Origin: Lentisphaera marina
GTDB taxonomy: Bacteria > Verrucomicrobiota > Lentisphaeria > Lentisphaerales > Lentisphaeraceae
NCBI RefSeq assembly: GCF_028745505.1
Contig: NZ_JAQZZL010000001.1
Location: 186,001-250,000, forward strand
DNA length: 64,000 nt
Direction of reading: 5' to 3'
A program made the position numbers and the translations under genes. Shown here in pieces: positions 1 to 64,000 of this stretch. Each line of letters opens with the position of its first letter. The first letter of the stretch is position 1. Under the pieces are notes generated by a model. That model had not been told where the DNA came from. It worked only from the letters and a program-made list of their open reading frames with translations, and searched no databases.

Positions 1-2104
1 TGAGAAGTTCTTCACCAACTTTTTCCGACTTTAATTTAAAGTTCACCTTTCCATTGAGGTTCATATAAAAACCGTCTAAAAACTTATTCGCTGTATAATT
101 AATGTGATTATAATTGGTCTTCACTCCACCCGAGAAATCGGCTTCACTAGCAGCGTAGATCTCCACCAAATCTTTGCTAAAGCGACGCGAAAAACTCTCC
201 AATTGTTCTTTGGGAATTTGCCCATCGGTAATCGTCACATGATCAAGACTCGGCAAGTCAAGTAAAGGCGATAAATCTTTGATTTGCGTATGCTGCAAAT
301 GCAGACTCCGCAAATTTAGCCCAGCAAATTCTTTGGCATCCATTATAGAATTATCAGCAACAAATAAATCTTTAAAATCTAGATACCTAAGTAAACTCAA
401 GCGAGTTATAGGCGAAGTCATATACTCCAGCTTTGGCCCCCACAAATCAAGCTCATAATCTTTTAAACTAACCTCCACATTTCCATTCTCTGGGTAATAA
501 TGAAAAATCAATGATGAGATGATTTTGGGAAATCCAGGATTGTTTTGAAAGCGTTCAGCATTATAAGCGATCACCAACTCCATTAAGACTGGTAGGCGTT
601 CACAAAAACTTACCATGGCCTTAAAATCTTCAAAATTAGGCTCTATCTTAGAGATATCACGACCTTTTAAATTTTTCTCGATAAAAGGCGCATAAAAAGG
701 AAGCTGATCAGCGTGTTTTTTATGAAAATTTGCAAAGCCCGCAAAATCCATAGCAATAAAATAATTCGCTACCAAAGCTTTAATTAAATAAATATCATCT
801 GGAGTCGTCTCGTAGGCCGCTTTGAGGTATTGATTAGATCTCTCTAAAGAAACCTTAGGCGTCATCAATAATTGATAATCACGATATTTTTGATTGTCCG
901 AAAAAATACGATCCACAATCTTTTTGGGCATGTATTTTATCGACTCTTCCAGACTCTGGTTTTCTTTCAAAGTCTTTTCTAAATCTTCCGCGTAACGCTC
1001 CGATTTCTCTAAAGCTAACAAAGTATTTCTTTCGCTTTCCTTAATTTCTTTAAGAAAAAATAGAAGTGAAACAATGATGATAAAAAAGGAGCTCACAAGA
1101 ATGCTACTCACATACTTATTTCGCCGCCATAAATAGCTCAGCTGAGTAATGAAGCCCGCTTCCTGAGCCATTGTTGGATAAGAATTTAAGAAGCGTTGCA
1201 CATCATTCTTCAAATCTTCCACCGAGCTATATCGATCAATTGATCGCAATGCCATTGCTTTAGCGACAACTGATTTTAGGCTCACAGGTAAATCTGATTG
1301 ATCGAGATCAGACAATACACCAGAACGACTCTCTTCTAAACGTTGATCCAGGTTTTTACCTTTCAACCTATCGGGATTCAAAATGGTGTACAACATCGCC
1401 CCAAGTGAGTATATATCTGTTCTCTCGTCTTTAGTCGTTCCTTGAAGCTGTTCGGGGGCCATATAGGCCGGCGTCCCCTTTGCTTCACCATACATAGTAC
1501 AATGATTGAGCATATCTGCTTCAAGTTCAAAACTCGAAGTCTCATCCCCTGCTTCTTTACGAGTAATAATTTTACCCAAGCCCCAATCACAGACAATCAC
1601 TTCACCAAAGGACCCCACCTGAATATTATCTGGCTTAAGATCTAGGTGAAGAACGCGCCGGGAATGCGCATAGGCAATCGCATCACATATTTTAATAAAA
1701 ATCCCGAGCAAAATATTTCTATCATCCTCTTTCTGAAGAAAAGCCTCTAGGCTAGCTCCTGTTTTCAACTCCATCGTAAAAAAAGGTTCGCGAGCTTTTG
1801 ATAAAGCTATTTGATAGATCTTGATAATATTGGGATGGTCAAGTAAAGCGGTAAGTCGCGCTTCGCGAATAAAGGCATCGCGCAACTCTACTTTTGAGGG
1901 ATCATTAAGACAGGCCTTCGCTATATAACGATGAGTACTATTACAGAATACCTTGTAGATCTTCTTCATCCCACCTGTGGCAATAAGGACTTCCTGTGAA
2001 TATTCATCAGCAGTGATCGGCAACTGATCACAGAGTGGAGAGCTTACCGTTACACCTTCCTCATAATCTTCCGATTCTTCGTATAATGATAAAAAACTAT
2101 CCAT
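1..2104 (-). CDS. Membrane Ser/Thr protein kinase, WNK-like lysine placement (C-terminus beyond window)
   Basis: The reading frame is open from an ATG at 2104 to the window edge, so at least 701 residues are visible. Kinase domain about residues 38-300: Gly-rich loop GGMKKIYK with K47, IAKA where VAIK is expected (Ala64 at the lysine position), helix-C Glu81, HLDLKPDN (D155, K157, N160), DWG (D173) and an APE motif. One TM helix lies near residues 328-348, so the kinase should be cytoplasmic with a periplasmic or extracytoplasmic C-terminal half. That half is partly helical and ends in leucine-rich-repeat-like sequence near 240-330. The ATG follows the sigma-factor stop by one base, so the two genes are almost certainly cotranscribed. 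The family is seen in PVC bacteria; the signal and substrate are unknown. Confidence 0.9.
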   Translation of the reverse strand, partial: MDSFLSLYEESEDYEEGVTVSSPLCDQLPITADEYSQEVLIATGGMKKIYKVFCNSTHRYIAKACLNDPSKVELRDAFIREARLTALLDHPNIIKIYQIALSKAREPFFTMELKTGASLEAFLQKEDDRNILLGIFIKICDAIAYAHSRRVLHLDLKPDNIQVGSFGEVIVCDWGLGKIITRKEAGDETSSFELEADMLNHCTMYGEAKGTPAYMAPEQLQGTTKDERTDIYSLGAMLYTILNPDRLKGKNLDQRLEESRSGVLSDLDQSDLPVSLKSVVAKAMALRSIDRYSSVEDLKNDVQRFLNSYPTMAQEAGFITQLSYLWRRNKYVSSILVSSFFIIIVSLLFFLKEIKESERNTLLALEKSERYAEDLEKTLKENQSLEESIKYMPKKIVDRIFSDNQKYRDYQLLMTPKVSLERSNQYLKAAYETTPDDIYLIKALVANYFIAMDFAGFANFHKKHADQLPFYAPFIEKNLKGRDISKIEPNFEDFKAMVSFCERLPVLMELVIAYNAERFQNNPGFPKIISSLIFHYYPENGNVEVSLKDYELDLWGPKLEYMTSPITRLSLLRYLDFKDLFVADNSIMDAKEFAGLNLRSLHLQHTQIKDLSPLLDLPSLDHVTITDGQIPKEQLESFSRRFSKDLVEIYAASEADFSGGVKTNYNHINYTANKFLDGFYMNLNGKVNFKLKSEKVGEELL

Positions 2105-2105
2105 C

Positions 2106-2702
2106 TTAAAACTCTAGAACCTGACGCAAATTATTCATTTCATTCAACAAACGATCTTTGACTCGATTTCGCAAGACATACACAGTGTTCACCGGGATAT
2201 CTAACTGCTCACTGATTTCCTGTGTCTTTAAGCCCTTGGAGCTCAATAAAAAAACATCTATTGCCTTGCCCGAAAAAAACTGTCTTAAGTGTTCAACCAC
2301 ATGCTTCACCATATAATTCACCCATTCATCATTGATAAGCTCATCAATGCGACTTCTTTCTTCACCTTCCTGCTCTAAATCTACAATATTCAGTTCGAGC
2401 TCACGATTTTCTCGCTTGCGATAAGCACGCATATATTCTAGAATTGCATGACGAATAACCGTACCTAACCAAGTACGAAACTTAGCACTTTCTCGCGATT
2501 CATACCCTTGAAGAGCTTTCCATATTTTTATAAGAACTTCCTGCTTCAAATCATCGTGGATCTGAGTGGGAATCGTCATCTTATGCAAAAGCATTTCAAT
2601 AAAGCCGGAATAATACTCAACAAATTCATTCCAGGCCAACTGATCATTGGGATCCTTTGCTCTTAGAAGAAGTGTTTTACGCGTATTAAACTGATCAGTC
2701 AT
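2106..2702 (-). CDS. ECF-type sigma-70 family RNA polymerase sigma factor (kinase-linked)
   Basis: A 198-residue protein. The N-terminus has the NTRxTLLxRAKDPNDxxAWxEFVxxY signature common in planctomycete/lentisphaere ECF factors. Region 2 is about residues 15-90 (LKQEVLIKIWKAL, FRTWLGTVIRHAI). Region 4 is about 130-190 with a helix-turn-helix around QEISEQLDIPVNTVYVLRNRV. It directs RNA polymerase to specific promoters. It is cotranscribed with the kinase at 1-2104, which plausibly controls it; no classical anti-sigma gene is adjacent. It is clearly paralogous to the sigma factors at 23850-24452 and 61638-62240, sharing the FFSGKA segment with the former. The target regulon cannot be read from the sequence, though the divergent multidomain gene at 2870 is an obvious candidate. 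Confidence 0.92.
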   Translation of the reverse strand: MTDQFNTRKTLLLRAKDPNDQLAWNEFVEYYSGFIEMLLHKMTIPTQIHDDLKQEVLIKIWKALQGYESRESAKFRTWLGTVIRHAILEYMRAYRKRENRELELNIVDLEQEGEERSRIDELINDEWVNYMVKHVVEHLRQFFSGKAIDVFLLSSKGLKTQEISEQLDIPVNTVYVLRNRVKDRLLNEMNNLRQVLEF

Positions 2703-21879: not shown

Positions 21880-23352
21880 TTACTGGATGTTTGAAGTTAG
21901 CAGCTTGAGCAATTTAGTGATAATTGCTTCTGTTTCTGGGTTATTGGCAATGTTATTATTCTCATCAGGGTCAATTTTATGGTCGTAAAGCTCCACAGCA
22001 ACTATTTTTGGTTCTCTAATGTTTTTTTCTTTAACCCACTTAACCAAGCGGTAACGGTCGGTACGAACAGTATAGCCCATAAGTTCACCCATTTTTGTTT
22101 CACCATGACTGCGTGGGTATTGACTATATGCAGCGGCTTTTATATTTAATTCGGGTTTTTTCAATAGTGGCTTCAAAGAGACTCCATCTATATTTTTAGG
22201 TTTTGGTAAACCCGCTAAATCAGTTAGTGTGGGGTATATATCGATCAACTCAACAAGTTCACTGCATTTTACCGATTTTGTATTTACTTGCGGATATTTA
22301 ATCATCAAAACTGATTTTGTATCAATCTCGCTATTGGAGTGCTTACTCCAAGCTCCGTGCTCACCAAGCTTCCAGCCGTGATCTGACCAAATAACAACGA
22401 TAGTATTTTCTGTTAAACCCAAAGCATTTAATTCATTAAGAACTTTGCCAACCTGAGCGTCCACATAGCTGACTGAGGCACGATAGCCGTGAATAAGTTT
22501 TTGAGCTATACTACTTTCAACAGGACCCTCATTTGGAATATCGGTGTAAGCACGCAGTTCTTTCCAGTTTGAGGTAGAATAAGGGGGAGCATGTTTTGCA
22601 GGGTAATTGTTACTGGCTAAATGAATCTTTGAAGGGTCATACAAATCCCAGTATTTTTGTGGCGCCGTGAATGGCAAGTGTGGTTTACTAAAGCCAACAG
22701 CAAAGAAGAAGGGGGCTTCTTGCTGACTAAGAACACGGAGTTTTTCAACAGCTTTTTCTGCAAGCTTACCATCATTGTAAACGTTATCTGGTCCCGCTAC
22801 AGCTTCTGCAGAAGGCCCTCTTGTTGCGTTAAAGAGAGGCACACCAACTAAGCCTTTTTCTCGTGCCTCACGGCTACGCCTTCTAACAGTATCTCGGTTT
22901 TTTTTATCGGCATATTTATCCCAATGCAAGCCAAAACACTCATCCCAAGATTCTTTTTCATCAATCTTGTAATAGTGGTATACCTTTCCGTAACCAACAC
23001 TGTAATATCCATTTTGAGTAAAATATTGAGGAATCGTTAATGCATCACCAATATAATCACGCATTTTTTTTGCTTGTGCATTACCCAGGATTTTAGAACG
23101 ATGAGGTCGTATAGAAGTCATGACCGCAGCCCGTGAAGGTCCGCAAACAGCAAACTGGGTGTAGGCATTAGTGAAACTAATTGCTGACTTGGCAAATTCA
23201 TCAATATTTGGGGTTATAAGCCCCTTCTTACCATAACAGTTTAATTCCGGACGCAAATCATCAATAGAAATAAAAAGGACGTTGGGTTTATCTTTCGCTA
23301 AGGACGAATATGATATAAAAAAACTGAAGATGAGTAGTAGGATTTTGTTCAT
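21880..23352 (-). CDS. Formylglycine-dependent sulfatase (iduronate-2-sulfatase-like)
   Basis: A 490-residue protein. Signal peptide MNKILLLIFSFFISYSSLA is almost the same as that of the neighbouring sulfatase, although the catalytic domains are only distantly similar. CGPSR has its Cys at 70; DD at 31-32; WSDHGWKLGEHGAWSKHS carries later active-site residues. A C-terminal subdomain follows from about 390. It is first in the operon with the sulfatase at 20211 (151-base gap that includes a second copy of the upstream motif, so the downstream gene may also have its own promoter). Probably exported and acting on a sulfated glycan. Confidence 0.93.
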   Translation of the reverse strand: MNKILLLIFSFFISYSSLAKDKPNVLFISIDDLRPELNCYGKKGLITPNIDEFAKSAISFTNAYTQFAVCGPSRAAVMTSIRPHRSKILGNAQAKKMRDYIGDALTIPQYFTQNGYYSVGYGKVYHYYKIDEKESWDECFGLHWDKYADKKNRDTVRRRSREAREKGLVGVPLFNATRGPSAEAVAGPDNVYNDGKLAEKAVEKLRVLSQQEAPFFFAVGFSKPHLPFTAPQKYWDLYDPSKIHLASNNYPAKHAPPYSTSNWKELRAYTDIPNEGPVESSIAQKLIHGYRASVSYVDAQVGKVLNELNALGLTENTIVVIWSDHGWKLGEHGAWSKHSNSEIDTKSVLMIKYPQVNTKSVKCSELVELIDIYPTLTDLAGLPKPKNIDGVSLKPLLKKPELNIKAAAYSQYPRSHGETKMGELMGYTVRTDRYRLVKWVKEKNIREPKIVAVELYDHKIDPDENNNIANNPETEAIITKLLKLLTSNIQ

Positions 23353-23849: not shown

Positions 23850-24452
23850 CTACTCAAGCTCATCACGCAAATGCTTTATCTCATCTCTAAGCCGTTTTTT
23901 CACCCGGCTCTTTAAAAGGTAAACTGAACCAATTGTGAGATCTAGCTGCTCGGCAATCTCTTCATTGTCAACACCTTCAATACTCATATTAAAAGCCTGC
24001 AAGGCCTTACCACTGAAAAAAACCTTTACCTTAGCCATTGCTAAATTGGTAAGATAGAGTCTCCACTCATGCTCAGCCATTTGCTCAATCTCTGGTTGAG
24101 TTATCGAATTTAAATATGATAAAGCCTTTTCATTGGCGGCGGACTCATGCTTTTTGTCCATACTGACTTGTTTACGAATGTGTTCAACCACTGTATTACG
24201 TGTAACTGAGCCAATCCAAGTGCGAAATTTTGCTCTATTTTTATCGTATTCAAATGAAGGTAACTTTTGCCAAAGTTTTACTAAGACCTGCTGAAGAAGA
24301 TCTTCACGAGCTGATTCTGCAACCTGCATTTTTCGAATAATCACATAAATATAATTTTTATAAACATCGATAAATTCCCGCCAAGCTTGTTCATCATCTT
24401 GATTCATAGCGCGTTGAAGCAAAGTAATTCGTGTATTGTAATTTTTGGTCAT
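23850..24452 (-). CDS. ECF-type sigma-70 family RNA polymerase sigma factor
   Basis: A 200-residue protein, paralogous to the sigma factors at 2106 and 61638: the same NTRITLLQRA start, REDLLQQVLVKLWQKLPSFEY region 2, FRTWIGSVTRNTVVEHIRK, and region 4 IAEQLDLTIGSVYLLKSRVKKRL. Shine-Dalgarno GAGG is upstream. Unlike the other two, the next gene downstream is not a kinase. The related kinase (26395-28464) lies upstream on the same strand, separated by a pseudopilin gene of opposite orientation. It sits inside the tRNA-Leu island beside sulfatases, which are likely targets. Confidence 0.92.
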   Translation of the reverse strand: MTKNYNTRITLLQRAMNQDDEQAWREFIDVYKNYIYVIIRKMQVAESAREDLLQQVLVKLWQKLPSFEYDKNRAKFRTWIGSVTRNTVVEHIRKQVSMDKKHESAANEKALSYLNSITQPEIEQMAEHEWRLYLTNLAMAKVKVFFSGKALQAFNMSIEGVDNEEIAEQLDLTIGSVYLLKSRVKKRLRDEIKHLRDELE

Positions 24453-25188: not shown

Positions 25189-25977
25189 ATGACAAAAATC
25201 TATAAACATATTACACTTGTCGAAATTTTAATAGTCATTGGTATCATAAGTATTTTGGCCAGTTTACTTCTTCCTGCTCTAGGTGCCGCACGCAAAAAAA
25301 GTCTTGTTCAAGTTTGTGCACACAAACTCAAACAAGCCGGTTATACTATAACTATGTATCAACATGATAACCAAGGCTTCTACCCTGGAGCGGGGGCTTT
25401 TGACACAGAGGTTAGTTATGATGACCAGCTTGCAGACTATGATGGCCGCAACATGACAGAAGCACAAATAAAAAAAATCCATGGCACGGATGCTCCTTTC
25501 ATGACAAAACAATATAAATGCCCTCTGGATACTGTCCCTGCGAATGACCCCGCCTATATGCGAAGAACCTATGTAATTTCTCAAGCATTTAAATTTTCGC
25601 CCTTAGCGGTCGGCCTTGTTCAAGATAAGGATGGAAGTTTCGCTATGAAGGGCTCGCAGGTGAACGAAGCCTCGAATACAATTGTTCTCTGGGAATTCAC
25701 TTACCAATGGAACAAAGTAGGTAAAGGTGGTAATTCAGTAAAAAGCCCAGGGTCTGCTGGTGTGTTCGGGGGGGTCAGTAACCTAGACCCCGCAGCCGTT
25801 TATAATAATTTTTTCCATCACGACAAGAAAGCTGGTGGCAATTATCTCATGGGGGACACATCAGTTCGCAGTATGAGTTTCTTCTCGACTCTAAAAACTG
25901 TAAAATCTGAAAATTCAAATGACGGAGAATACCGTGGCACTATTTGGGATTCCGGCTTACCCAATCCGGCCTGGTAG
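25189..25977 (+). CDS. Prepilin-type N-terminal methylation domain protein (pseudopilin-like)
   Basis: A 262-residue protein. The start MTKIYKHITLVEILIVIGIISILASLLLPAL is a type IV prepilin/T2SS pseudopilin leader and hydrophobic spine with the conserved Glu at +5, but the residue before the predicted cleavage site is His rather than Gly. Lentisphaeres encode many proteins of this kind, often near polysaccharide-degradation genes. The C-terminal domain contains NYLMGDTSVRSMSFF, a tail motif common in this group. Shine-Dalgarno AAGG. It probably forms or caps a pseudopilus or is a surface protein; its role near the sulfatases is unknown. Confidence 0.85.
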   Translation: MTKIYKHITLVEILIVIGIISILASLLLPALGAARKKSLVQVCAHKLKQAGYTITMYQHDNQGFYPGAGAFDTEVSYDDQLADYDGRNMTEAQIKKIHGTDAPFMTKQYKCPLDTVPANDPAYMRRTYVISQAFKFSPLAVGLVQDKDGSFAMKGSQVNEASNTIVLWEFTYQWNKVGKGGNSVKSPGSAGVFGGVSNLDPAAVYNNFFHHDKKAGGNYLMGDTSVRSMSFFSTLKTVKSENSNDGEYRGTIWDSGLPNPAW

Positions 25978-26394: not shown

Positions 26395-28464
26395 TTAATC
26401 GGTAAAGATAATGCTTATGCCCTCTATAGGATATTTTTTGAGCTCTTTAATTTGGCCCTTGTGAATGATTAATTGCTTAGGTTTTTGCTTGAATTTCTTA
26501 AGGCTCCACAGCTCATTAACTTTTGTGTGGCTGATATCCAAAATATCCAGTTTAAGCTCACTGAGTTCATGGATATTAGAAAAATCCGTATGACTAAGGT
26601 TGAGAACTTTGGGGGCTAGTGTATCCAAAATAGAGTGATTAATAAATTGATTGGTGGCCAACTGTTTGACCGTTGCTAAACCATTACTATAAGCAAGAGA
26701 CAAAGTCGGCCCTTGTTCAGATTTGGTAAAAATGAAATTAAGATCCTGGCTTTTCATGTCAGAGTTGGCAAGAAGGACGTATTCCCGTACGAGTTGACTG
26801 TGCTCTTCAGGTGTACTAACTTGTCCATGACGAATGAGTATATACATTTTCAGCCATCTTCGATGCCGCGGCAGTTCTTTAGCCAGTTGAACGGTTTGTT
26901 CAATCGTAAGAAGTTTACTATCATCAGGTTTGATTTTTTTATATTTTGTATTGAGACGGGTAATAACGAAGACGTGCGGGGCTTCGTCAGCACATTCAGC
27001 AAAAGCAAAATCAGCCTGTGTAAACTCCTGCTTAATCATGTGAACAAATGCCTTTTCGGCCCAAGCATTTACATTTTTAGGATTTTCACGGATGGCAAGA
27101 TCACACAAAGCAAGTGCCATTTCAAAATCATATTTACGACTGTTGGAAATAGCCGTACCCACAAGGAGTCGGGAAAAGTGTTCATCAACATCTTTGTAAG
27201 CAATTAGATTTTTCTTAAAGGCCGCGATTGTCTGGTCAACTTCATTCACCATAAGTTCACGATTTAACTTTTCTTTTTTATAAAGAGTAAGTGACTTTTC
27301 AGCTCGTTCTTTAGCTAAACGTTCTTGAGTAGCACGGTTTTGGAGTGCTGTAATAAATAGTAAAGTCAGTACTATCGTCGCAAAGGTAAAAGTGATAGCA
27401 CTTTGACAAAGGCGTTTATTTCTTTTATAAATAAGTTGGACTTGCTTTCCTAAATGAGCATGTTCAGCTTTAGTTGCATAGCCACGTAAATAAGCTTGAA
27501 TATCGTCTCGAAAATCAATGGCCGACTCATAGCGTTGGTCCTGCTTGAGGCTAAGAGCCTTGAGACACACCGCTTCAAGGCTCTCGGGAATGATTTTTTC
27601 AGTTGACTCTAATTTAGCTATAATTCCTTTTCGAGTTTTAAAGAGTACTTCCTGAGGTGTAGCCGCCTGAATATGGGTCTTCCCGCTTAGTATATAAAAA
27701 AGCACTGCTCCCAAAGCATAAATATCAGTTTGTTCATTTTTTTCTTGACTAAGCCCTGCTTGTTCAGGTGCCATGAACCCTGGAGTACCTTTTAGTGAGC
27801 CTGTACGTGTCATATCGTTAAGCAAATTACAATTAAGAGAGAATTGATCTAGATACAGCTCATCATCGGTATTATTAATTATCTTAGCTAAGCCCCAATC
27901 GATAAGTAGAACATCGCCAAAAGCTCCCACTTGAATATTACTGGGTTTAATATCTAAATGTAGAGTTTGACGTGAATGGGCATATGCTACTGCGTCACAA
28001 ACCTTGACCAAAACATCCAATAAATCAACGAGCTCCACACTTGGCTCTTGGCATTTATGATAAGCTATTATGAGCTTTTCTAAACTGTTCCCTCTGAGTA
28101 ACTCCATAGTAAAAAAAGGCTTATCATCTTTATCAAGTTCAATATTAAAAACAGGAATAATATTCGGATGGTGTAAATTAGCCGTAATACGAGCTTCTCT
28201 TAAGAAGCGTTCATAGGCCTCTTGATTGTCTGCAATTGGACGAGCAAGTGCTACATGGCGGTCAGCATTAAAATCAAATGCTCTGAAAATATTCTTTTCT
28301 CCACCGTGATCAAATTTTTCTAACTCTTCAAAATGGAGTCTCTCCAGTAATTTCGCTTGAATTGGAAAAAGAACCTTACTATCATAATCTTCCGCTTCGT
28401 CATCATAGAACGGAAGGAGTTTTGGATTGAGCTCACCCAACACTGTCTCTGTATGTTTTTTCAT
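26395..28464 (-). CDS. Membrane Ser/Thr protein kinase, WNK-like lysine placement, TPR/LRR C-terminus
   Basis: A complete 689-residue member of the family. Kinase domain about 46-320: Gly-rich loop GGEKNIFR with K57; VALA at 71-74 (Ala74 in place of the VAIK lysine); helix-C Glu90; HLDIKPSN (D171, K173, N176); DWG (D189); APE. A TM segment lies near 355-375, then a coiled-coil stretch (about 375-410), TPR-like helices (about 430-520: ALCDLAIRENPKNVNAWAEKA) and a leucine-rich-repeat-like end (about 600-680). It should sit in the inner membrane with the kinase in the cytoplasm. It lies in the tRNA-Leu island, 1.9 kb upstream of the sigma factor at 23850. Signal and substrate unknown. Confidence 0.92.
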   Translation of the reverse strand: MKKHTETVLGELNPKLLPFYDDEAEDYDSKVLFPIQAKLLERLHFEELEKFDHGGEKNIFRAFDFNADRHVALARPIADNQEAYERFLREARITANLHHPNIIPVFNIELDKDDKPFFTMELLRGNSLEKLIIAYHKCQEPSVELVDLLDVLVKVCDAVAYAHSRQTLHLDIKPSNIQVGAFGDVLLIDWGLAKIINNTDDELYLDQFSLNCNLLNDMTRTGSLKGTPGFMAPEQAGLSQEKNEQTDIYALGAVLFYILSGKTHIQAATPQEVLFKTRKGIIAKLESTEKIIPESLEAVCLKALSLKQDQRYESAIDFRDDIQAYLRGYATKAEHAHLGKQVQLIYKRNKRLCQSAITFTFATIVLTLLFITALQNRATQERLAKERAEKSLTLYKKEKLNRELMVNEVDQTIAAFKKNLIAYKDVDEHFSRLLVGTAISNSRKYDFEMALALCDLAIRENPKNVNAWAEKAFVHMIKQEFTQADFAFAECADEAPHVFVITRLNTKYKKIKPDDSKLLTIEQTVQLAKELPRHRRWLKMYILIRHGQVSTPEEHSQLVREYVLLANSDMKSQDLNFIFTKSEQGPTLSLAYSNGLATVKQLATNQFINHSILDTLAPKVLNLSHTDFSNIHELSELKLDILDISHTKVNELWSLKKFKQKPKQLIIHKGQIKELKKYPIEGISIIFTD

Positions 28465-28743: not shown

Positions 28744-30495
28744 CTATTGAGAATTACGCTCTTGAGATATCTTTAAAAATAATACGCCATGGCTGCTGAC
28801 AATTGAAGAAAAAGATTGGTCCAAGATACCAATATCTCTCTGTCGCCAGAGATCGCGAAGCTTACCGCTCATACCTAAATCTTCTGCAGAAAAAGTGAGT
28901 ATTTGATCCTTTTCTGAAATATTGAACAATGCAACGGCCTTATCACCGCCAGCAAGGTCCTTAGCCCAGATTTCATAACTGCCTTTCTGATTACTAATTC
29001 TATAACCTTGCTTACAAAGTGGATCCTGATTTACCGCTAGAACTTCGTCATTGGTGACAAGGTTAATGTCAAATTCATCCATACTTGTTATGTCACAGGA
29101 TAATAATAAGGGCTGAGTGAGGATACACCATAAGCTTACCTGGTGATACTGCTCAGAAGCCGTCAAGGGAGAAGGTTTGAACACTACCTCCGCGCGATTC
29201 GGCTTACCAAGTGGTCCAATCTGCAGCATGTCGAGATCTCCATAGTGACCAGGACGCGTCAAAGACAAACGCTTCTCCATTTGAAAGGGAGCGATCATCA
29301 TCTTCCAATCAGCATGAATATCACCGGTAAGGCGCCACAAATTACAATATTTGGAAACAAAAGTATCTTCAAGATCTTCATGTTTAGGAGAAAGACTTAA
29401 AATAATATCACGCTCAAGTTCGTAAAAATTATCATGCACCCGCTTTGTGATTCCTGACTCGGGAGTTTTAATTGATTTTTTTTTCGAAGGCCAATAACCT
29501 TTTAGTGCATTCTCTCCCAAATGTGGCTTTTTCTTAAGGATATGTGCAAGTTCTTTTTCATTTTTCTCCAAAGTCCATTCCTTCCAGTCATATTTCACGT
29601 AATCAATACCCCAATCGGCAAATTGTTGTGCGTCACGACCTACCAACCATACATCTCCGACTTTACAAAGGTTTTTTACAATGCCATGTGGGTATCGTCC
29701 GAAAACCTGATAGGGATTCTGGCGTTGAATTTCCGATAAATAAAACTCTGAATAATCACCTTCTTTATTTGGTGACGATCCGCCAATATAACCTGCATAG
29801 GTTGACATCCATGGTGTCGAATAAAGACCAAGCTTAAATCCTTTTTCGTTAACAAAAGCAACCAGTTGCTTCATATCACCAAATTTACCATTTGGCTGGA
29901 TGGCTTGCGTGTTTGGATCACGTTCGCCCATCCAACAATCGTCGATATTCACATATGTCCAGCCATAGTCAGCCAGCCCTTTTTCCTCCATTGAGGAAGC
30001 GATTTCCCGGATAGCCTTATCACTGACCCCCTCGGAATGTACGTACCAGCTGTTCCAACCCATGGGCGGTGTCAGACAAATAGTATCACCCACGCGCAGA
30101 ATAAACTTGCGTTTATCCTTTCCTTTGATATTGGTTGCGCTTAAGGTCAGTACCACATCTCCCTTTACTCCGGGAGCAAGACCGTTGATCCAGCCGCTTT
30201 TTTCATCAATAGTCACCCCCTCAGGTAAACCCTGAGCAGAATACTCAATAGGCTTTTCTCCAGTAGCCGACACACGAAAACGAATGGGATTACCAGGTCG
30301 CACACCAAATATAGCAGTACTAGTAATTTTTGGCTTAGGAGATGCTTTCGGCGTTAAAATCTCCTTGCCTTTAATTCGGGCATCATAAATATCTTGTTGA
30401 CTAGCATTGAGCTTGACGGAAGCTATTGCACCACCCAAAATGGTCAATTTAATTAATTGTGTATATACTGCTAGAGCACATGATTTATTTTTCAT
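28744..30495 (-). CDS. GH27 alpha-galactosidase-like glycosidase with N-terminal Ig-like domain
   Basis: A 583-residue protein. Signal peptide about 1-32. A putative Ig-like domain (about 55-137: ITSTAIFGVRPGNPIRFRV..GLPEGVTID..GWINGLAPG) precedes the GH27 barrel, which begins LTPPMGWNSW (141-150). The nucleophile is probably D303 in KYDW and the acid/base D422 in GDLDML. The C-terminus is a beta-sandwich (about 500-580). It hydrolyses terminal alpha-galactosyl or alpha-N-acetylgalactosaminyl units, in the periplasm or outside. Shine-Dalgarno AAGGA. It shares a 13-bp upstream element with the island sulfatases, suggesting common control. Confidence 0.9.
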   Translation of the reverse strand: MKNKSCALAVYTQLIKLTILGGAIASVKLNASQQDIYDARIKGKEILTPKASPKPKITSTAIFGVRPGNPIRFRVSATGEKPIEYSAQGLPEGVTIDEKSGWINGLAPGVKGDVVLTLSATNIKGKDKRKFILRVGDTICLTPPMGWNSWYVHSEGVSDKAIREIASSMEEKGLADYGWTYVNIDDCWMGERDPNTQAIQPNGKFGDMKQLVAFVNEKGFKLGLYSTPWMSTYAGYIGGSSPNKEGDYSEFYLSEIQRQNPYQVFGRYPHGIVKNLCKVGDVWLVGRDAQQFADWGIDYVKYDWKEWTLEKNEKELAHILKKKPHLGENALKGYWPSKKKSIKTPESGITKRVHDNFYELERDIILSLSPKHEDLEDTFVSKYCNLWRLTGDIHADWKMMIAPFQMEKRLSLTRPGHYGDLDMLQIGPLGKPNRAEVVFKPSPLTASEQYHQVSLWCILTQPLLLSCDITSMDEFDINLVTNDEVLAVNQDPLCKQGYRISNQKGSYEIWAKDLAGGDKAVALFNISEKDQILTFSAEDLGMSGKLRDLWRQRDIGILDQSFSSIVSSHGVLFLKISQERNSQ

Positions 30496-61637: not shown

Positions 61638-62240
61638 ATGGAAAAAAAATACAACACACGTCAAACACTTTTGTCAAAAATTGTGCAGGCTGATGATGAT
61701 CATTCATGGGAAGAATTTGTCCAATATTACCAAGGCTATATCTATGCCGTCATTCGCAATCTCGGTGTTAAGCAAGAACTGATTGAGGATTTACTGCAAG
61801 ATGTCTTACTCAAAATCTGGAAATCTTTACCCAATTATGAATACCGCAAAGGCGAATGCACTTTTCGAACGTGGTTATGCCTTGTAATTAAAAGTATTGT
61901 TTATAATTATTTCCGTAAAAAATCGACCCGAAATGATGCTAAAAATACGGATTACGACGCTACGCTTCACAGTCTTGATGCCATTACTGAGCCGGAAATA
62001 AATATCATTGCCGAAAAAGAATGGAAAATTTACGTCTCTAATCTGGCTTGGAATAATGTGAAAGACGAATTCCCACAACGCTGTAGAGAAATTTTTGAAG
62101 CCTCCATTCATGAAGCAAATAATGAAATCTTAGCCAAACGCTTTGATATAACTGAAAGCTCCGTTCGCGTTTATAAGTCTCGAGTCAAAAAAGTCTTGCT
62201 CCGAGAAATGTCACGCTTAAACCACGACCTAGGAGCTTAG
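61638..62240 (+). CDS. ECF-type sigma-70 family RNA polymerase sigma factor (kinase-linked)
   Basis: A 200-residue paralogue of the sigma factors at 2106 and 23850: NTRQTLLSKIVQADDDHSWEEFVQYY at the N-terminus, IEDLLQDVLLKIWKSLPNYEY in region 2, TFRTWLCLVIKSIVYNYFRKK, and EILAKRFDITESSVRVYKSRVKKVLL in region 4. The stop precedes the kinase start by 10 bases, so the two are cotranscribed. Likely targets are the nearby sulfatase and dehydrogenase genes, by context. Confidence 0.92.
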   Translation: MEKKYNTRQTLLSKIVQADDDHSWEEFVQYYQGYIYAVIRNLGVKQELIEDLLQDVLLKIWKSLPNYEYRKGECTFRTWLCLVIKSIVYNYFRKKSTRNDAKNTDYDATLHSLDAITEPEINIIAEKEWKIYVSNLAWNNVKDEFPQRCREIFEASIHEANNEILAKRFDITESSVRVYKSRVKKVLLREMSRLNHDLGA

Positions 62241-62250
62241 TCGTCCAAAC

Positions 62251-64000
62251 ATGAGTCAAGGTAATGAGTATTTCGATGAAAAATTAGCTGATTTCTTTGA
62301 TGAGCTCGATGACCTCGATAACTTACCGATCCTCGATACTATTGCCTCCATCACCGAGCGTTATTGTGACTTCAAATATCTTGATGAGGGTGGAATCAAA
62401 ATCATCCATAGTTGCCGTGATTTAAAAACTGGTCGTGAAATAGCCATGGCCAGTTTAAAGGAATCTGCCAAAGACCCTGAAAAAGAATTGTTTTTAAAAG
62501 AAGCTCGCCTAACGGCAGCTTTGCAACATCCAAATATCATCCCATTACATGATTTAGGACTCAAGGGCGAGCAGCCCTGGTTCACAATGAAACTGGTTTC
62601 TGGAGCATCTTTAGAACAAGTTTTAAAAAACCTAAAAAACGGTAAATCTCAGCAACTCGACAATCTCAGTGAACGCTTAGATCTTTTCTTAAAAGTCTGT
62701 GATGCCATTGCTTACGCACATTCTAGGGGTGTCCTTCACCTCGATATTAAGCCCGATAATATACAAATTAGCGATTATGGCGATGTCTTAGTCTGTGATT
62801 GGGGACTCGCCAAAGTTATGGCCTCAGTTTGTGACGAAGAACTTCTAGAATGTTACACCTTTAATCCCAAGGATATTGATTTAACTATTGATGGCCTTGT
62901 TAAAGGAACTCCAGGCTATATGGCTCCCGAACAAACCCGTTTGATAAAAGCTAAAAAAGGTATTCATACCGACATCTTTTCTTTGGGCTGTGTGCTCTAC
63001 AAGATCTTGACTTTAGAAAAGCCCTTCAAGGGTGCCGACTTAATGTCGGTGATGAATAATACCGTCAATGGTAAATTTCCTAAACCCAGCGAGATCAATC
63101 CCAATGTTCCTTTATCCCTCGAAGCCGTTTGCTTAAAGGCTCTCTCCACTGATCCACAAGATCGCTATGCGAAGGTCATTGACTTACAGAAAGAAATTTC
63201 AGATTACCGCCAAGGCTTTGCGACCAACGCAGAAAATGCCACATTATTGACTTTAACACGCCTTTGGTATAAACGGCACCGTACGCTCAGTATTGCCTCG
63301 ATAATTATCACTATCATCAGCCTTTGCACCGCCTTTTTTGCCTTCAACAACCTTAAACTCGAAAAACTTAATGCCCAACAAACTTCCGTAAGATTAAAAC
63401 TCGAAGCGGACAAACTGCAGTTGGAAAATGAATTTCATAAAAAATTTAATAAGGGTGCCGCTCCACGTTTTCTGCGAAGAGCTCAAATTGCTTTCGACAC
63501 CTATAATTTTGACGACGCCGTAAACTTTTGTGATAGTGCAGTAGAACTCGACCCGAGTTTAAGCGATGCCTGGGCTTTAAAAGGCCTGCTTCACATCATT
63601 CACGAAGAATTCGGTGCAGCGGTATATGCCTTAAATAAAAGCCAGCAAAAAAACACTTTAAATCAACTAGCTAATGATTTTTTCCAAATAAAAAAAGACG
63701 ATCAACAAGCGCTCTCCCTCGAGCATTTTGTGGACTTATTTCATCGATCGACAAATTCTGGTCTAATGAACTTAAGTGGAGCTTTAATTCATAACAAAGC
63801 CTATAGCAAGGTCCCCCTCAAGGAACGTATTGAATTTTGTAAAGCCATCATTCCAGTTCACAACGAAAAAAGTTTACGCAGACATCGCGGTAATAAAAAT
63901 TTGAACTTCTCCTATGATCCAAAACTTAAAAAACTTGACCTCTCGAATAATCCTTGGGTGCAAGCTGCTTTAATTGTACAAAATTTCCCCGCTCATGTTG
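62251..64000 (+). CDS. Membrane Ser/Thr protein kinase, WNK-like lysine placement (3' end beyond window)
   Basis: At least 583 residues are visible from the ATG at 62251. Kinase domain about 41-310: Gly-rich loop GGIKIIHS with K50; IAMA with Ala67 at the VAIK lysine position; helix-C Glu84; HLDIKPDN (D165, K167, N170); DWG (D183); APE in MAPEQ. TM near 345-366, then a coiled coil and TPR-like helices (NFDDAVNFCDSAVELDPSLSDAWALKGLL), and leucine-rich-like sequence starting near 560 (LKKLDLSNNPWV). Ten bases after the sigma factor stop. Same architecture as the other two kinases. Signal and substrate unknown. Confidence 0.9.
   Translation, partial: MSQGNEYFDEKLADFFDELDDLDNLPILDTIASITERYCDFKYLDEGGIKIIHSCRDLKTGREIAMASLKESAKDPEKELFLKEARLTAALQHPNIIPLHDLGLKGEQPWFTMKLVSGASLEQVLKNLKNGKSQQLDNLSERLDLFLKVCDAIAYAHSRGVLHLDIKPDNIQISDYGDVLVCDWGLAKVMASVCDEELLECYTFNPKDIDLTIDGLVKGTPGYMAPEQTRLIKAKKGIHTDIFSLGCVLYKILTLEKPFKGADLMSVMNNTVNGKFPKPSEINPNVPLSLEAVCLKALSTDPQDRYAKVIDLQKEISDYRQGFATNAENATLLTLTRLWYKRHRTLSIASIIITIISLCTAFFAFNNLKLEKLNAQQTSVRLKLEADKLQLENEFHKKFNKGAAPRFLRRAQIAFDTYNFDDAVNFCDSAVELDPSLSDAWALKGLLHIIHEEFGAAVYALNKSQQKNTLNQLANDFFQIKKDDQQALSLEHFVDLFHRSTNSGLMNLSGALIHNKAYSKVPLKERIEFCKAIIPVHNEKSLRRHRGNKNLNFSYDPKLKKLDLSNNPWVQAALIVQNFPAHV

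Follow-up and report, generated by a model that had tools for sequence, protein, structure and literature searches.

The WNK kinases were listed in a 2007 survey as the sole functional ePK family without K72, and the same survey described CAK-chloro as a parallel case, with Arg at position 55, Met at position 72, and E91 lost to Phe (PMC1821047; PKA numbering of positions). In POMK (SGK196), the lysine has migrated to strand beta-2 (PMC10211241). Those passages of a 2025 bacterial pseudokinase family review that are retrieved by keyword cite WNK for comparison and mention no bacterial group of this kind (PMC12599244). A planctomycete kinome study regarded a kinase as functional only if the K, D, and D sites were present, a criterion that would discard lysine-shifted kinases (PMC11032199). 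As for kinases acting on ECF sigma factors, a related precedent is the phosphorylation of EcfK by PknS (PMC13147305), and in the ECF43 partners of PknS and PknT it is the charge-depleted sigma-2.2 motif that is phosphorylated (PMC13147305, PMC8103513).

Here, we describe a family of bacterial kinases with a relocated lysine that is probably new to the literature. The analysis started from a window of 64,000 nucleotides of the Lentisphaera marina genome, in which three kinases are assigned to Pkinase (PF00069) by Pfam with 101–120 bits at a cut-off of 31.7. The focal gene (26395..28464, minus strand) is an ORF of 689 aa, with the kinase domain at approximately residues 50–329. Its Gly-rich loop reads GGEK, with Lys57 (codon at 28294..28296) at the position of PKA G55, and its VAIK motif reads VALA, with Ala74 (28243..28245) aligned to PKA K72. 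Further codons on the same minus strand are those of the helix-C Glu90 (28195..28197; PKA E91), the catalytic Asp171 within HLDIKPSN (27952..27954), where the HRD Arg is replaced by Leu, Gln178 (27931..27933), aligned to PKA L173 at the adenine-floor position, and Asp189 (27898..27900) of the DWG motif that corresponds to DFG. A large ORF at 28744–30495, alpha-galactosidase-like (GH27-type) by inspection, adjoins this gene. The second kinase (1..2104, minus strand; K47 codon 1964–1966, A64 codon 1913–1915) and the third one (62251..64000, plus strand; K50 codon 62398–62400, A67 codon 62449–62451) are incomplete, each extending past the window edge, left and right, respectively. The replacement of the VAIK lysine by Ala together with a lysine in the loop had been claimed for all three in the original prediction, and both the residue numbers and the WNK-like spacing are reproduced: the two positions are 17 residues apart in each window kinase, as are K8 and C25 (query numbering) of WNK1, a sequence fully identical to PDB 5w7t.

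The relocation is real and extends across the family. There are 98 Pkinase matches in the 5.3 Mb of the host genome (3 contigs), and after alignment of the domains from the surrounding regions, 87 kinases are readable at both positions 55 and 72. Lys55 is found in 54 of them, with Ala (52) or Val (2) at position 72 and in no case with Lys72. The other 33 have G, A, or S at position 55, and 32 of these retain Lys72; the exception, C1:1086111, reads ...GAMKI, with the lysine one column off, so that its "neither" state looks like an alignment shift. Together with loci from a scan of other genomes, described below, and 24 further shifted loci from relatives, the final set contained 93 shifted kinases and 111 others. 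Among these 204 non-redundant sequences, 93 have Lys55 only, 110 have Lys72 only, none has both, and one has neither (Fisher, 1e-58); the VAIK position of shifted kinases is occupied by Ala (91) or Val (2) and never by lysine.

The family spreads over several classes, a breadth that the original prediction had missed. A scan of named prokaryote genomes with search patterns derived from the shifted family covered at least 80 loci among the matches listed; the 16 shifted kinases among them all belong to Lentisphaerota, Kiritimatiellota (Pontiella type), or Verrucomicrobiota, and the loci from Planctomycetota, Myxococcota, Acidobacteriota, Chloroflexota, and others are canonical wherever both positions are readable. 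In the genome pattern search, the host's family and the Pontiella-type family alone exceed the background of about one match per genome.

Structure prediction, proposed earlier as a check, was run on the focal kinase domain. In the AlphaFold2 model (mean pLDDT 89, pTM 0.88), Lys57 (domain residue 20) is predicted to begin strand beta-2 and Ala74 (domain residue 37) to lie inside beta-3. The best PDB fold matches are to PknB of M. tuberculosis, the closest solved fold, with approximately 25% identity and a canonical lysine. The full-length model (pLDDT 79) consists of the kinase, a long helix through the transmembrane segment, TPR-like pairs at about 426–566, and an LRR-like end. From hydrophobicity and the model, the transmembrane segment is placed C-terminal to the kinase domain at approximately 27346..27417 (minus strand). 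A transmembrane helix is present in 93/93 shifted kinases, the hydrophobic segment beginning 20–26 residues past the kinase domain; this universal feature is absent from the original prediction. A short subfamily of about 370–420 aa from Lentisphaeria genomes (L243, L246, L250, L251, L138, L147) has the kinase and the transmembrane helix only.

The proposed tie to ECF sigma factors stands as a family trait. In the host genome, an ECF sigma gene is located within 300 bp of 43/54 shifted kinases versus 3/33 canonical ones (Fisher, 6e-11), and for 28 shifted kinases it is directly upstream on the same strand. No sigma gene occurs within 300 bp of the other 11 shifted kinases, nor near L243, L246, L250, and similar loci of several Lentisphaeria genomes in the regions read. 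Pfam assigns ECF sigma factors directly upstream of the second (2106..2702, minus strand) and third (61638..62240, plus strand) window kinases. For the focal kinase, adjacency does not hold: the nearest Pfam-assigned ECF sigma gene (23850..24452, minus strand; 200 aa) is downstream at a distance of about 1.9 kb, with an opposite-strand pilin-like ORF (25189..25977, plus strand; type II pseudopilin-like N-terminus) in between.

The gene neighborhood contains a further signal that the original prediction did not mention. The median distance to a sulfatase gene, measured with the best 150 sulfatase candidates of the host genome, is 6.6 kb for shifted kinases, 33 kb for canonical ones, and 18 kb for random positions (circular-shift p 0.0005), and pilin-like genes are enriched around shifted kinases as well (p 0.001). 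A sulfatase identified by Pfam (21880..23352, minus strand) adjoins the focal sigma gene and may belong to its target locus. At least 150 sulfatase genes were scored in the host genome, several of them inside the window.

Apart from the lysine, the catalytic residues are kept almost throughout, as had been claimed for the window kinases. Among the 93 shifted kinases, retained residues are G52 (92), E91 (93), D166 (92), K168 (92), N171 (93), D184 (92), the APE Glu (92), and D220 (93). A single sequence, C2:1355928, explains the losses of G52, HxD, and DxG; this kinase, whose HxD and DxG motifs are degraded (C2:1355928-1357790), adjoins C2:1361992-1363839 and is likely a decaying duplicate. Two changes that had escaped the original prediction accompany the lysine shift. 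The HRD Arg is replaced by Leu (HLD) in 87/93 shifted kinases, and Leu also occurs in 13 canonical ones. PKA L173 packs beneath adenine; this position is M, L, V, or I in 51/52 canonical DWG kinases, and the great majority of shifted ones have a polar residue there (Q 42, R 15, N 13, H 7, plus other residues), a substitution that may alter nucleotide binding. HLD with a canonical lysine was observed at C3:91618-92913, which has an ECF-like gene next to it, and at L141:4857-6041, and one shifted kinase from a related genome, L281, has DFG in place of DWG.

Among described systems, WNK (WNK1 K233/C250) shares several features with the family: a lysine at the G55 position replaces the VAIK lysine, and the helix-C Glu and catalytic Asp are kept. 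It differs from WNK in forming a separate clade and in having Ala rather than Cys at beta-3, HLD rather than HRD, and DWG rather than DLG, as well as in its polar adenine floor, transmembrane helix, and ECF linkage; a WNK-type chloride pocket is not expected. Indeed, the speculation about a WNK-type salt- or chloride-sensing role finds no support, since Trp occupies the position equivalent to WNK1 L369 in 93/93 shifted kinases, as it does in their canonical DWG sisters; the WNK1 mutant L369F is chloride-insensitive (PMC13397483). CAK-chloro likewise has a positive charge shifted from position 72 to 55, but this is Arg in a CAK-type kinase-like family that has lost E91, not Lys in a PknB-type one. 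POMK shares the beta-2 lysine, but is a eukaryotic sugar kinase with altered HRD and DFG. In the pairs PknS-EcfK and PknT-EcfP, a Hanks-type kinase gene adjoins an ECF sigma gene, as here; however, in described ECF43 partners the acidic motif of sigma-2.2 is typically replaced by non-charged residues, whereas in the aligned shift-linked ECFs an acidic residue occupies alignment position 47 in 50/50 cases and position 44 in 34/50. An ECF43-type phospho-switch is not supported for them on these grounds.

That the pattern is an artifact of chance or alignment is refuted by the mutually exclusive 93/110/0 distribution and by a blind test, in which a DNA pattern for the C-lobe motif HLDxKPxN(I/V)Q alone was searched against 289 genomes of the phylum: it matched 24 genomes, and all 30 loci that were read proved to be K55/A72, while control patterns gave 0 matches in the same genomes. 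We thus give this explanation practically no credence. Trees built without the diagnostic columns place the shifted kinases as one clade inside canonical bacterial DWG kinases (SH-aLRT 91; 91/74; 74/71 in three trees). In the 74/71 tree, the immediate sisters are the canonical kinases L252, L255, and L256 of the same class, which already have HLD and DWG and differ in the VAIK lysine, the loop glycine, and a hydrophobic adenine floor; this suggests that HLD predates the lysine move. One quick tree placed these three inside the shifted clade, which would need three changes. A single origin is therefore likely, with moderate support, and, given common descent, it is fair to speak of one event that has been preserved, with no exception, over more than 90 duplication and speciation events. 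The question of convergence with WNK versus shared ancestry had been left open. An ancient ancestry shared with eukaryotic WNK through horizontal transfer would account for the identical lysine position and the 17-residue spacing, but it is exceedingly improbable: WNK1 groups with PKA, OSR1, and STK24 (100/96; the sequences of these three are presumed correct), a joint clade of WNK1 with the shifted bacterial kinases is rejected (lnL lower by 36.7, p-AU 0.009), and PknB, whose sequence was taken from the similarity search, is the nearest solved relative, and the immediate sisters of the shifted kinases are canonical HLD kinases. Hence, the two relocations apparently evolved apart.

Whether these proteins are enzymes is a separate matter. 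The domain could belong to pseudokinase receptors that bind nucleotide or sigma without phosphoryl transfer, serving as membrane-tethered anti-sigma factors or scaffolds, in which the loop lysine merely stabilizes nucleotide binding. The missing VAIK lysine, the loss of the HRD Arg, and the polar floor, odd in an ATP-binding kinase, all fit this explanation; the retained acidic sigma-2.2 residues would make phosphorylation of the ECF43 kind unneeded, and pipelines demanding the K, D, and D sites would label the shifted kinases non-functional (PMC11032199). However, the catalytic Asp with its Lys and Asn, the metal Asp, the helix-C Glu, and the APE Glu are kept in 92–93 of 93 sequences from several classes, which is unexpected without catalysis, the sole loser of motifs being the apparent decaying duplicate. 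We regard inactivity as unlikely. The retained helix-C Glu, in contrast to CAK-chloro, speaks for active kinases, and the activity deemed plausible in the original prediction is, judging from the conserved residues, likely. It is quite improbable that active enzymes handle the nucleotide differently, with another base preference, ATP pose, or transferred group, the floor and the lysine having changed together. The mostly polar L173 position and the Cys at position 183 in 54/93 shifted kinases point in this direction, but the pocket residues A70, M120, V/I57, and G52 are unchanged and the HxD and DxG spacing is canonical. A related idea, in which loop lysine, polar floor, and HLD arose as one concerted remodeling of the clade's nucleotide site, so that control of sigma factors relies on a nucleotide pose, base, or reaction outside the standard, seems rather unlikely to us.

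We favor, as probable, active Hanks-type Ser/Thr receptor kinases that acquired a WNK-style lysine in one ancestral event and control ECF sigma factors. In that event, the ATP-phosphate-binding lysine would have left beta-3, where the VAIK position is now Ala, and taken the place of the third glycine in the Gly-rich loop, where beta-2 begins; there it would pair with the retained helix-C Glu and place the ATP phosphates, much as in the independently evolved WNK1; we infer this contact, as well as the role of sigma as the substrate. The kinase domain would lie in the cytoplasm, ahead of a single transmembrane helix, after which there is usually a TPR/LRR-like domain, probably the extracytoplasmic sensor. 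The neighboring ECF sigma factor, the usual partner, is probably controlled through phosphorylation by the kinase and would switch local gene sets, e.g., sulfatase loci.

The VAIK lysine is a standard marker for calling kinases active or dead, and lysine-requiring pipelines overlook entire receptor kinomes, here 54 of the 87 alignable kinases of the host genome. Beside WNK, the group of the human blood-pressure kinases, the family represents a second, apparently independent, and bacterial origin of the relocation, with close canonical sisters and with paralogues that number in the dozens in a genome. It thus offers a natural experiment on active-site rewiring and a second test case for rebuilding the kinase catalytic core, and it points to a kinase-sigma signaling layer in Lentisphaera-type bacteria.
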